Positions 56,774-60,185 of a stretch of 64,000 nucleotides of DNA are shown here, in pieces; position 1 is the stretch's first letter; each line of letters opens with the position of its first letter. The DNA is from Polynucleobacter sp. 73C-SIWE (lineage in GTDB: Bacteria; Pseudomonadota; Gammaproteobacteria; Burkholderiales; Burkholderiaceae): contig NZ_JACVOK010000001.1 of assembly GCF_018882465.1 (NCBI RefSeq), positions 558,001 to 622,000 on the forward strand. The letters run 5' to 3'. The notes under the pieces were generated by a model. It did not search any database. It had not been told where the DNA came from and worked only from the letters and a program-made list of their open reading frames with translations. The position numbers and the translations under genes were made by a program.

Positions 56774-57169
56774 ATGATTGATCATTTAGACCATCTTGTA
56801 TTGACTACGGCAAAAGAGATTGAGTGTATTGATTTTTATACGCGCGTATTGGGTATGCAGTTAGAGTCATTCATTGGCGGATCTCCGCCAGTAGAGCGCA
56901 AAGCTTTTAAGTTTGGAAATCAAAAGATTAATTTGCACATCAAGGGGAGAGAGTTTGAGCCCAAGGCCAATATTCCAACTCCAGGAGCTCTAGATCTTTG
57001 CTTTATTGCCGATAGGCCTCTTGCAGAAGTCATTGCGCACTTAGAAAAAGAAGCTTGGCCGATTATCGAGGGACCTATCGTTCGCACTGGAGCAACTGCA
57101 AAAATAAACTCTGTGTATGTTCGTGACCCTGATCAAAATTTGATTGAGATTAGCGAGCTAATTTCTTGA
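56774..57169 (+). CDS. VOC (glyoxalase/dioxygenase) family protein
   Basis: From the ATG at 56774 the protein has 131 residues and a two-module VOC fold: IDHLDHLVLTTAKEIECIDFYTRVLGM at the start and VYVRDPDQNLIEISEL at the end. Metal ligands are plausibly His5 or His8, a His in INLHIKG and the Glu in LIEIS. The open frame extends upstream into the hydrolase gene, but that part is not family-like. The stop overlaps the next start (TGATG). Confidence 0.85.
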   Translation: MIDHLDHLVLTTAKEIECIDFYTRVLGMQLESFIGGSPPVERKAFKFGNQKINLHIKGREFEPKANIPTPGALDLCFIADRPLAEVIAHLEKEAWPIIEGPIVRTGATAKINSVYVRDPDQNLIEISELIS

Positions 57170-57906
57170 TGTTTCAAGACCCACTCCTTCAGGCCCTTGT
57201 CCTAGGGACTTTAGGTTTGGGTGCCGGAGTTTTGGGTGGGGTAATTGGGTTTGGCACCACGATCATCTTAATGCCTGCTCTGGTGTATTTTTATGGGCCG
57301 ATTCAAGCAATTCCAGTCATTGCACTCGTTGCTACGCTCGCAAACCTCTCCCGCATTTTTCTTTGGTGGAGCGTTATTAATTGGAAAGTGTGTTTTGTCT
57401 ATAGCGTTACTGCAATACCTGCGGTGATATTAGGCGTCAATACCTTAGTGACGCTAAATGATCGACTTGTTGAGATTACTCTTGGCCTTTTCCTCATTTT
57501 GCTCATCCCAATTCGTAGGTGGATGCGCAAGCAGAATTTTTATCTCAAGCTGTGGCAAATGAGTTTGGTAGGCGCTGTCATTGGTTACCTCACTGGCATA
57601 GTGGCAACAACTGGTGCGATTAATACGCCGTTCTTCTTGGCGTTTGGCTTAAGCAAAGGGGCCTATTTAGGCACCGAGGCCGCGAGTACTCTATCCATTC
57701 TATTTACCAAGGGTATTACTTTTCACCAGCTTGGGTTCTTAAATACGACAGCCATTATTCAGGGCCTCTTGATTGGTAGTTGCGTATTGGTCGGCTCAAT
57801 TTTTTCTAAAAGAATTGTTTTGGCCTTGCCTGAAAAGAAGTTTTTATTGCTGATGGAGCTCGTGATGCTTATTTCAGGGCTCTCTATTCTAGCCATGTCT
57901 TTGTAG
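57169..57906 (+). CDS. TSUP family permease
   Basis: Second TauE/SafE-type transporter in the window. It has 245 residues with about seven or eight membrane helices, the N-terminal GAGVLGGVIGFGTTIILMPAL (about residues 18-38) and a repeated motif YLTGIVATTGAINTPFF in the second half. It overlaps the VOC gene start to stop (TGATG), so translation is probably coupled. Substrate unknown; sulfite, sulfonates and small organic anions are common in the family. Confidence 0.87.
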   Translation: MFQDPLLQALVLGTLGLGAGVLGGVIGFGTTIILMPALVYFYGPIQAIPVIALVATLANLSRIFLWWSVINWKVCFVYSVTAIPAVILGVNTLVTLNDRLVEITLGLFLILLIPIRRWMRKQNFYLKLWQMSLVGAVIGYLTGIVATTGAINTPFFLAFGLSKGAYLGTEAASTLSILFTKGITFHQLGFLNTTAIIQGLLIGSCVLVGSIFSKRIVLALPEKKFLLLMELVMLISGLSILAMSL

Positions 57907-57928
57907 AGACATTGGTATAAATCACTAG

Positions 57929-57956
57929 TTCTGAATTCAGGGCATCAGGATATAAT
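57929..57956 (+). promoter_or_regulatory. Promoter of the glycine riboswitch transcript
   Basis: A perfect TATAAT at 57951-57956 lies just before the first riboswitch helix. A weak -35 (TTCTGA, 57929-57934) sits 16 bases upstream. The transcript would begin at about 57962. Confidence 0.6.
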
Positions 57957-57960
57957 TTCT

Positions 57961-58146
57961 ATAAGCAGGAGAGTGAGGGGCAACCCTCCACCGAAGGCGC
58001 AAACTCCCATGAACGCTCAGGTATCCCACAGGAAGGTACTGCTTATCCTAAATAGCCGTCTGGAGAGCCACCATTTATGGTGCACCGAAGGAGCAAGCAC
58101 TAAGCTAGGCTTAGTGTGAATCTCTCAGGTATCAGGGACAGGGGGA
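57961..58146 (+). promoter_or_regulatory. Tandem glycine riboswitch
   Basis: Two adjacent glycine aptamers. The first (57961-58046) is closed by ATAAGCAG pairing with CTGCTTAT and holds GGAGAG, CCGAAGGCGCAA and CTCAGGTA. The second (about 58055-58146) holds GGAGAG, CACCGAAGGAGCAA, CTCTCAGGTATCAGGGACAG. These are the conserved cores of the gcvT-type motif. No glycine cleavage gene follows; the next frame is a 63-codon gene 180 bases on. The remaining non-coding bases (58147-58324) contain a six-codon frame (ATG at 58206) and no clear terminator. Confidence 0.92.
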
Positions 58147-58324
58147 GCGGCATCCATCTGCATGGCATCGCTATGTTGCTGGGGGACCGTTTTGGGAGAG
58201 ACTTTATGCAAAACCTTTGCAAATAATTCAGTAGCAAATTTACTCATGGTCTGCAGATGCAGATCTATTTCTATATTGCTTAATGGCGTTATTGCCTTGA
58301 GCGCTTACTGAATAAGGTTAATGT

Positions 58325-58516
58325 ATGACAAACAAATTTGTTGAAGAGGCACCGTATCACCCTGGGTATGAAGATGCTGGTTTTAAAAGCGTAGCTTCAC
58401 CACTTGCTGCAGAAATTGATCAATTTAGAAAGAGCAATTCTCGTTATTTAAATTTTGCAGATGTGATTGTTGACTTTTGCGCATCAGATCAAAATAAATT
58501 ACAAGCAGCGAAGTGA
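58325..58516 (+). CDS. Small protein of unknown function downstream of the glycine riboswitch
   Basis: The 63-residue protein is soluble-looking, with no signal or membrane segment, and starts MTNKFVEEAPYHPGYEDAG. AAGG lies about 9 bases before the ATG. It ends 7 bases before a strong terminator, which supports a real gene. I do not recognise it. It is the only frame of useful length that the riboswitch transcript could express. Confidence 0.5.
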   Translation: MTNKFVEEAPYHPGYEDAGFKSVASPLAAEIDQFRKSNSRYLNFADVIVDFCASDQNKLQAAK

Positions 58517-58522
58517 TCTATT

Positions 58523-58554
58523 GTAAATAAGCTACCTTTTGGTGGCTTATTTAC
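58523..58554. terminator. Bidirectional terminator between convergent genes
   Basis: A 14-base stem (GTAAATAAGCTACC / GGTGGCTTATTTAC, one wobble pair) closes on a TTTT loop. It lies between the small gene on the plus strand and the phosphatase gene on the minus strand and can serve both. Confidence 0.8.
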
Positions 58555-58577
58555 TAACTGCCTTGGTATGGATGTGG

Positions 58578-59222
58578 CTATAGATCTAAGTTGTCTAATG
58601 CCAAACCATCAAGATGGCTGGTGTCTGCCCAGCTCTCCACTTTCCAGTTAGATCCATTCCAGCGAATCCAATTGAGTGATGCATTTGGAACGGTGACCGC
58701 TTTCTCGGCATCTAATGCTTGATTGCTCGCCATTCGATACATCATATCCAGAGCTCCGCCATGGCTGACCAATAAGATTGTTTTGCCAGTATGCTTTTCT
58801 TGGATTTCTTCAAGTGCAGCTTTAATACGGTTTGCAAATTGCAGGATGCTTTCGCCACCACGCAACTCTTCGTGAATATCTCTGTTGATATGCGCTTGCC
58901 AGAGCTCTGGCTCTGAATCCGGCGCTTCGCTAATAGTGAGCCCCTGGAGGGTGCCAAGATGACGCTCTCGCAGTGCGCTGTGGGTAATGGCAGAAACTGT
59001 ATAGAGGCTCTCAATCGCTTTTGCAGTTTGTTTCGCTCTTTGTAAGTCGCTGGTGTAGAGAACATCAAACTCAAAATGACTAGCTTTAAGCGCCCTGGCC
59101 ATCTGGGCTGCTTGAGCTAAGCCACAGGCATTTAAAGGAATATCAGTATGGCCCTGTAGGCGGCGCTCGGCATTCCAATCAGTTTCTCCGTGGCGCACTA
59201 AGCAAAATCGAGTCGTAGTCAT
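58578..59222 (-). CDS. Histidine phosphatase family protein (GpmB/CobC-like)
   Basis: Cytosolic phosphatase of 214 residues. The catalytic motif LVRHGETDWNAERRLQGH lies at residues 8-25. Also visible are YTSDLQRAKQTA, the acid in LRERHLGTLQG and the second catalytic histidine in LLVSHGGALDMMY. Proteins with this pattern are annotated as phosphoglycerate mutase-like, alpha-ribazole phosphatase or broad phosphatases; the precise substrate cannot be told. Confidence 0.87.
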   Translation of the reverse strand: MTTTRFCLVRHGETDWNAERRLQGHTDIPLNACGLAQAAQMARALKASHFEFDVLYTSDLQRAKQTAKAIESLYTVSAITHSALRERHLGTLQGLTISEAPDSEPELWQAHINRDIHEELRGGESILQFANRIKAALEEIQEKHTGKTILLVSHGGALDMMYRMASNQALDAEKAVTVPNASLNWIRWNGSNWKVESWADTSHLDGLALDNLDL

Positions 59223-59306
59223 TTAGCAATCATAAGGGCTAATGATTTCATAGGCTTTAAGTCAGCCTACAGATTCCTCAATACAATGGACTGATACACG
59301 CAAAGG

Positions 59307-60185
59307 GTGACAGTGAATAAAGAAACCAAAGGAATGCTCATCGGTTTTATTGGCATTTTGATTTTTAGTTTGACTTTGCCAGTGACCAAGATTGCAGTTT
59401 TGAGCTTTGATCCATACTTCATTGCATTCGGCAGGGCCACCCTCGCAGCGTTGGTTGCCTTGGCTTACCTGATATATAAAAAAGAACCCATGCCCTCCAG
59501 GGCAGATTTCACTAAATTCGTAGTGATTGCTTTGGGAGTCATCTTTGGTTTTCCAATTTTTACTACTGTTGCCATGACCGAAGGATCTTCATCTCATGGT
59601 GCAGTCATTTTGGGAATGATGCCCTTAGCTTCAACCGTCATTGGTGTGATTCGCTTTAAAGAGCGGCCATCCGCGGGCTTTTGGTTAGTTTCTTTATTGG
59701 GCGCAGCATTAGTAGTGATATATGCCTTATTAAAAAGCTCTGGAAGTTTTACTTATGTAGATGTCTTATTAGTTCTCGGCGGTATTTGTGCTTGCATGGG
59801 TTATGTAGAGGGCGGCGAGCTTTCTCGCAAAATGAATCCACGGTCTGTAATTTCTTGGGCACTCGTGATTTCGCTGCCCATCAATTTGGTGGTGGGTTAT
59901 GTCACATTTGATTCGCAATACTTCAATGCGAGTCCGATAGCCTGGACTAGCTTCATTTATCTAAGTTTGTTCTCGATGTATATTGGATTCTTCTTTTGGT
60001 ATGAAGGACTTGCTATTGGCGGTATTGCACGTGTTAGCCAAGTTCAGCTTACACAACCTTTTTGCACCCTTATTGCAGCTAGTATTTTACTTGGAGATTC
60101 GCTCACAATAATGAATTTAGTGTTTGCTTTCTTAGTCATCACTACCGTTATCTTAGGAAAGAAAATGTTAGTGAAGAGGGTATAA
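59307..60185 (+). CDS. EamA/DMT family transporter
   Basis: Ten-helix drug/metabolite transporter of 292 residues made of two EamA repeats. The first repeat contains FDPYFIAFGRATLAALVALAYL and the second LALGGIC-like residues (here VLGGICACMGYVEGG) and GLAIGGIARVSQVQLTQPF. The start may be GTG at 59307 or, with better spacing from AAGGG, GTG at 59313. It probably exports a small metabolite or amino acid; the substrate is unknown. Confidence 0.87.
   Translation: MTVNKETKGMLIGFIGILIFSLTLPVTKIAVLSFDPYFIAFGRATLAALVALAYLIYKKEPMPSRADFTKFVVIALGVIFGFPIFTTVAMTEGSSSHGAVILGMMPLASTVIGVIRFKERPSAGFWLVSLLGAALVVIYALLKSSGSFTYVDVLLVLGGICACMGYVEGGELSRKMNPRSVISWALVISLPINLVVGYVTFDSQYFNASPIAWTSFIYLSLFSMYIGFFFWYEGLAIGGIARVSQVQLTQPFCTLIAASILLGDSLTIMNLVFAFLVITTVILGKKMLVKRV

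Follow-up and report, generated by a model that had tools for sequence, protein, structure and literature searches.

A tandem glycine riboswitch in Polynucleobacter sp. 73C-SIWE probably forms the first half of a two-step glycine sensor, in which the riboswitch controls a mini-cistron of only six codons whose translation is in turn coupled to that of a conserved 63-residue protein. The unit lies in a 64,000-nucleotide stretch of DNA (positions 558,001 to 622,000 of contig NZ_JACVOK010000001.1), the whole of which is referred to here as the window. Comparison with related sequences supports its two aptamers, the fixed length of its upstream open reading frame (uORF), a covarying helix between the two frames, the linkage of riboswitch and small protein, and a host background in which neither GcvT nor GcvP was detected. 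From these features we infer that the uORF is translated, that the unit responds to glycine, and that the two frames are coupled.

Layout of the riboswitch unit

The features of the unit are listed in Table 1. Both aptamers exceed the RF00504 gathering score of 32 and together take the common, tandem form of the family, in agreement with the original prediction that both are intact. They are a true glycine riboswitch, which would be expected to respond to glycine, and they represent the sole glycine riboswitch detected in the source genome (99.92% complete). A good −10 element had been predicted before the aptamers. By eye, the corresponding position reads TATAAT or TATACT in 24 of 27 leaders chosen to represent relatives; two more (L014 and L074) carry TAAACT, the row of L130 is mis-anchored, and the element of the window is absent from the output of a consensus promoter scan. 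The riboswitch probably has its own promoter.

Table 1 Features of the glycine riboswitch unit and the adjoining gene, in positions of the window.
Feature	Position	Strand	Remark
−10 promoter-like element TATAAT	57951..57956	+	directly 5′ of aptamer 1, by eye
Glycine aptamer 1	57956..58047	+	RF00504, 48.0 bits
Glycine aptamer 2	58050..58151	+	RF00504, 57.8 bits
Predicted hairpin, possible expression platform	58144..58193	+	MFE fold; aptamer 2 to uORF Shine-Dalgarno
Shine-Dalgarno-like GGGAGAG of uORF	58194..58200	+	GGGAG/AGGAG in relatives
Six-codon uORF MQNLCK, stop TAA	58206..58226	+	length conserved in relatives
Coupling helix, 5′ arm (predicted)	58226..58234	+	starts in uORF stop codon; covaries with 3′ arm
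Coupling helix, 3′ arm (predicted)	58305..58313	+	ends beside second Shine-Dalgarno; covaries with 5′ arm
Shine-Dalgarno-like AAGG of small protein	58314..58317	+	sequence
63-residue small protein ORF	58325..58516	+	conserved; EAPYHPGYED stretch, then one predicted helix
13-bp inverted repeat, one G-T pair, terminator-like	58524..58553	+	by eye
Histidine phosphatase gene	58578-59222	opposite	next gene 3′ of unit

A local hairpin at the place of the possible expression platform recurs in most, though not all, of the 26 representatives that were folded (of 27). The GGGAGAG that follows aptamer 2 was also considered as a third, partial aptamer, a candidate that was rejected because in relatives it is the Shine-Dalgarno sequence before the uORF start. 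The six-codon frame (ATG CAA AAC CTT TGC AAA TAA) and the 63-residue frame are both found behind the riboswitch as predicted, and with these two frames directly 3′ of the aptamers, in place of any known glycine gene, the arrangement is not that of a gcvT-type riboswitch. The next gene encodes a histidine phosphatase on the opposite strand, which fits the proposal that the TSUP and EamA transporter genes would lie outside the unit. A strong terminator had been placed behind the small protein; the inverted repeat itself is present, and hairpin-like repeats are seen by eye 3′ of the small ORF in many representatives, but its strength is plausible only, because a terminator scan did not list it.

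Linkage of riboswitch and small protein across the genus

Polynucleobacter is a common freshwater genus. Our genus survey comprised 121 genomes, 78 of which carry a glycine riboswitch under stricter filters. An alignment of the small protein matches 50 of them; one match (G121, E 9e-4) lies inside a 502-aa frame and was dropped, leaving 49. By coordinates, a glycine aptamer lies just upstream on the same strand in 44 of these 49 genomes, and relatives do therefore keep the riboswitch and the 63-residue frame together. The remaining five (G078, G087, G093, G125, and G128) have no glycine aptamer upstream in an Rfam search up to E 0.5, and their proteins form a separate sequence group. Among the homologues without a riboswitch (L125-L129), several of those inspected have an upstream inverted repeat near TTTCGTAATACGAAA, with TTTGGAGGA ahead of the start codon, a layout that suggests that a protein regulator may have taken over from the riboswitch.

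A second set of loci, obtained by scanning named genomes with two peptide patterns, recovers close relatives and overlaps the 121-genome set. Aptamer core motifs lie upstream in 43 of its 46 loci, with none in L085, L087, and L088. A histidine phosphatase gene is near the unit in 32 of the 46 loci and a TSUP gene in 19, and the unit therefore occupies more than one gene neighborhood. This linkage supports the small protein as a conserved, uncharacterized target of the glycine riboswitch, and hence the suggestion in the original prediction that it may be a previously unrecognized member of the glycine regulon.

The same locus was then compared in genomes that lack the small protein. At E 0.001 every one of the 121 genomes has a histidine phosphatase match, many of the distant ones being probably paralogues, and we took the 3′ flank of the phosphatase gene in 20 small-protein-less genomes drawn from the best phosphatase matches. 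None of the 20 flanks contains a glycine riboswitch (Rfam up to E 0.5), and thus none has gcvT or another known gene directly after this riboswitch; the small protein is likewise found in none of them (tblastn). A TSUP gene lies within the fetched flank in 12 of the 20. As the neighbors are kept in these 12 and both elements are gone, the riboswitch and the small protein are missing together. The alternative first put forward, in which the original target was deleted and the riboswitch left behind as an orphan, finds no support in a conserved, linked protein and a joint absence of this kind.

Some loci are individually of note. A single contig of Polynucleobacter sp. 71A-WALBACH carries two riboswitch-small-protein units whose proteins have diverged (L071 and L084). 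The unit is apparently decaying in L130, where the uORF Shine-Dalgarno is mutated and the protein is truncated, and in L124, where the aptamers are weak (35.5 and 38.8 bits). In one group a gene for an amino-acid-binding protein (SBP_bac_3, L078:4303-5052) lies 3′ of the small ORF in the same orientation, apparently beyond a terminator-like hairpin. In L201 the TSUP gene ends a few bases from the histidine phosphatase gene, while most other unit-less TSUP loci have about 800 bases between the two.

Conservation of the six-codon uORF

The six-codon frame had been treated as incidental in the original prediction; its length is strongly conserved. We collected 66 distinct leaders, 60 with a glycine aptamer core and 6 without. 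Among the 60, the uORF has six codons in 54, five codons in 4, and sixteen codons in one (L009), and is absent from one (L132). The working set of 58 leaders consists of those with uORFs of five or six codons; its limit of at most seven codons leaves out L009 and L132. A uORF of six codons arises in 4.6% of dinucleotide shuffles (200 for each of 27 representatives), and one of either five or six codons in 9.3%.

The uORF starts with ATG in 57 of the 58 leaders and with GTG in one, and GGGAG or AGGAG precedes the start in 57 (it is mutated in L130, and is present in L009 too). Judged from the sequence, then, a short ORF with a ribosome site stands just after the riboswitch and is conserved among relatives. 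In the 58 leaders the uORF frame stands apart from the +1 and +2 frames, both of which are scattered. The encoded peptides vary freely, as illustrated by MQNLCK, MHILIE, MRALPS, MNTTPS, and MTRYSG, and it is therefore the length and the place of the uORF that are kept, not its peptide. Amino-acid attenuation by the uORF was considered and rejected, as no common codon or residue pattern was noticed in the peptides.

In L132, which has no uORF, the small protein begins directly behind the platform. This leader branches outside a group formed by the other 59 and three riboswitches of a second type, described below, that precede a 358-aa protein (support for the inner group, 0.79). Because of this position, the uORF-less state may be ancestral or may result from a deletion.

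A covarying helix between the uORF stop and the second Shine-Dalgarno

A helix with covariation links the uORF stop to the downstream ribosome site. It was analyzed in 27 representatives whose stretches from uORF stop to small-protein start are less than 75% identical. Arms taken from the same leader pair at −10.0 kcal/mol on average, versus −6.9 kcal/mol when arms are swapped, and none of 20,000 permutations reaches the observed own-arm mean, values that are not true probabilities because the representatives are related. The own 3′ arm outranks every foreign arm in only 8 of the 27; in L007, L010, and L102 it is outdone by more than half of them.

The signal depends on position. When the 5′ window is slid along the leader, z is −5.0 at stop−9, −6.4 at stop−3, and −4.5 at stop+3; the other positions tried give no signal, which is absent from stop+9 on. 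Moving the 3′ window upstream by 0, 8, and 16 bases gives z values of −6.4, −4.4, and −0.7, respectively; at 24 bases upstream the signal returns (z −3.3, 19 leaders), for which we found no explanation. A helix of at least 6 pairs can be drawn in 20 of the 27 representatives and one of fewer than 6 in the other 7, a count made with the best register chosen and without a shuffle control. Compensatory changes are found at several helix positions, e.g., U-A/G-C, C-G/U-A/A-U, G-C/U-A, and U-A/C-G. A site containing AGG precedes the small protein in 52 of the 58 leaders and is missing from 6, and the helix mostly adjoins this Shine-Dalgarno sequence rather than covering it.

Folding and a proposed mechanism

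With a ribosome masked at the uORF stop, the predicted cost of opening the region of the main start falls from 7.4 to 5.0 kcal/mol on average; the fall exceeds 0.5 kcal/mol in 21 of the 27 representatives and does not in the other 6. Control masks bring no such easing, as the cost is 7.9 kcal/mol with the mask at the uORF start and 7.4 kcal/mol with equal windows in the loop (26 leaders). The cost of opening the Shine-Dalgarno sequence alone changes little, from 2.6 to 2.1 kcal/mol. Since the mask at the stop eases the start region and the mask at the uORF start does not, passage to the stop, and not mere initiation, should ease the main start.

We propose that the tandem glycine riboswitch governs translation of the six-codon uORF, which has a strong Shine-Dalgarno sequence shortly after the aptamers. 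A ribosome reading the uORF to its stop would then cover the 5′ arm and melt the helix, and with the helix open the 63-residue protein would be translated. What would matter in the uORF is that a fixed length of it is read; the sequence of its peptide varies. In a stronger form, which is possible but which we put forward more tentatively, the unit would be a natural ribo-attenuator, in which an obligatory, sequence-independent uORF of six codons sets the level of a genus-specific protein of glycine metabolism in cells without a glycine cleavage system.

The helix also connects the uORF stop with the second Shine-Dalgarno, and it could instead act as a bridge that brings the two side by side, so that terminating ribosomes restart across 55-108 bases. 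Both the position of the Shine-Dalgarno, for the most part beyond the stem, and the nearly unchanged cost of opening it suit such a bridge, and termination-reinitiation is reported, in the portion of PMC11260477 available to us, for the ppe2 uORF behind a B12 riboswitch in M. tuberculosis. The 5′ arm, however, would be under the ribosome at the stop, so that helix and terminating ribosome are initially exclusive, and the small protein has its own AGG-containing site in the large majority of leaders; we consider reinitiation of this kind unlikely.

A somewhat smaller chance still is given to transcriptional attenuation, in which termination of the transcript ahead of the small ORF would depend on the uORF and the helix, with Rho acting, for instance, when the uORF is left untranslated. 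Rho can gain access to mRNA where a leader is not translated, the mycobacterial Mbox works with Rho according to the accessible part of PMC12810186, and the terminator scan places a weak terminator-like hairpin in the loop of the source leader (58248-58265). Against this, terminator-like sites are at chance level in the region scanned (3 versus 2.8 expected in 57000-60000), and by eye no common hairpin followed by a T run was noticed in the leaders of relatives. Opening of the helix by a ribosome that translates the uORF is the reading that we prefer.

The sense of the switch is approached by two arguments that lean in opposite directions. Holding the P1 3′ strand unpaired lowers the predicted exposure of the uORF Shine-Dalgarno in 21 of 26 representatives and raises it in 5, in crude folds that leave the aptamer out; if this constraint mimics the bound state, the hint leans toward an OFF switch. 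A physiological argument leans toward an ON switch, if the small protein helps in glycine disposal; in the part of PMC6944388 consulted, glycine riboswitches are described as inducing disposal genes and repressing uptake genes. Pairing of the P1 3′ strand with the uORF was tried as the switch itself and rejected, being no better than in shuffles (mean z 0.05).

Glycine genes and other glycine riboswitches in the genus

In the source genome GCV_T and GDC-P were undetected; of 14 control genomes, 11 were positive in the first search and 10 in the second. Across the genus, a GcvT match below 1e-70 is present in 20 of the 121 genomes, a count that excludes five genomes (G001, G061, G074, G092, and G125) whose GcvT-like matches range from 2.8e-47 to 2.0e-51, and G086, whose best match lies inside a 1004-aa frame. 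GcvT below this threshold occurs in none of the 49 small-protein genomes (Fisher p ~1e-5, kinship ignored), one of which, G125, has a weaker GcvT-like match (1.6e-48). Neither GcvT nor the small protein is found in 52 of the 121 genomes.

The genus has further glycine riboswitches, and these stand before gcvT, before a D-amino-acid-dehydrogenase-like gene (NF009074), or before the gene of a 358-aa protein. Our riboswitch tree contains 60 members of the small-protein type, 6 with the 358-aa protein, 18 of the dadA-like type, and 10 of the gcvT type, and in it the 358-aa type interleaves with the small-protein type. The 358-aa protein (L122:1597-2673, also L032, L041, L120, L121, and L123), whose riboswitch is close kin of that in the window, has homologues in 12 of the 121 genomes. 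Its L122 copy has no Pfam or NCBIfam match, and the start of the protein looks Rossmann-like in our judgment. Beside the aptamer in L123 there is a weak match to glycine-GGAnGA (RF03166) at 1560-1648, of 34.1 bits versus a gathering score of 110. A riboswitch precedes the DadA-like gene at L018:1744-3000 (NF009074) and at others of L016-L030 and L171-L197, and a 410-420-residue frame, alike at its start, follows the riboswitch in 14 of the 28 loci L170-L197 (13 in other genera). The D-amino-acid-dehydrogenase-like protein is perhaps a glycine-oxidizing enzyme.

These relationships bear on the idea of an orphan riboswitch, in which the true target would have been lost, the uORF would be the decayed start of an old gene, and the small ORF would be there by chance. 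The uORF start is at the place of the start codon of the 358-aa protein in the related riboswitches, and this, together with the interleaving in the tree and the lack of detected GcvT and GcvP in the host, speaks for such a history. It would not explain why the protein, the uORF length, and the covarying helix are conserved over diverged strains, why linkage holds in more than one neighborhood, or why riboswitch and protein are jointly absent at the same locus in 12 relatives; weaker evidence on the same side is that the six 358-aa loci have no histidine phosphatase gene within about 3 kb. We regard an orphan origin as very improbable.

The 63-residue protein

Nine residues are invariant in 43 aligned sequences of the small protein (E8, A9, P10, H12, P13, G14, Y15, E16, and D17). 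AlphaFold2 predicts no regular structure for residues 1-25 and a single helix for residues 26-62, with a mean pLDDT of 77.6 and a pTM of 0.39. Searches returned no Pfam or NCBIfam match up to E 10 and no significant match in PHROGs (best E 0.074) or among PDB sequences (best E 0.9), and every hit among 399 genomes from 158 genera of the order, and among 299 genomes from 25 genera of the family, fell within the genus itself. Our guess is that it may be a small binding or adaptor protein whose target, either an enzyme or a transporter, belongs to glycine, serine, or one-carbon metabolism.

Comparison with known systems

If the proposed mechanism is true, the riboswitch would act simply by way of a minimal cistron being translated, and not directly on the ribosome site of its target. 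The glycine regulon would also gain an uncharacterized small protein in strains where no clear gcvT was detected, and this protein would offer a handle on glycine handling in such cells. In the open-licence literature, which leaves subscription journals mostly outside, we found no report of a glycine riboswitch followed by a uORF and a small protein, and nothing on a glycine riboswitch in Polynucleobacter or on Polynucleobacter glycine cleavage. The available excerpt of PMC9481103 makes no mention of a uORF or small ORF.

With the tandem glycine riboswitches (RF00504) of the gcvT and transporter type the unit shares two intact aptamers, and it differs from them in what follows, an unnamed small protein behind a uORF of six codons. 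The contexts given by Crum et al. 2019 (PMC6944388, as far as consulted) are glycine cleavage and transporters, and the words hypothetical, orphan, and small protein are absent from the main text of that article.

In two systems of M. tuberculosis, described here from parts of their reports, a riboswitch likewise controls a uORF: the B12 riboswitch with the ppe2 uORF (PMC11260477), where ppe2 expression needs translation of the uORF, and the Mbox with the rv1805A uORF (PMC12810186). Ligand and phylum differ from ours, and translation is shown there, where for Polynucleobacter we infer it. In ppe2 the ORFs overlap, whereas here a covarying helix would span 55-108 bases behind a variable uORF of six codons. 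The odc1 motif, as presented in the sections of PMC8632094 at hand, resembles the unit in combining a structured leader with a uORF of fixed length; it differs in that its peptide is conserved and that two start codons two nucleotides apart stand behind one predicted ribosome site.

In mechanism there would be a likeness to the synthetic ribo-attenuators, for which we draw on part of PMC5496857. There, too, a riboswitch drives an upstream ORF, and the ribosomes that translate it unfold a hairpin covering a second ribosome site; the unit described here, if it works as proposed, would be a natural counterpart of this engineered design. The engineered devices use a 150-bp ORF, a ribosome site within the stem, and a fused TAATG, whereas the Polynucleobacter unit is natural and has a uORF of six codons, a long loop, and a ribosome site that lies mostly beside the predicted stem.
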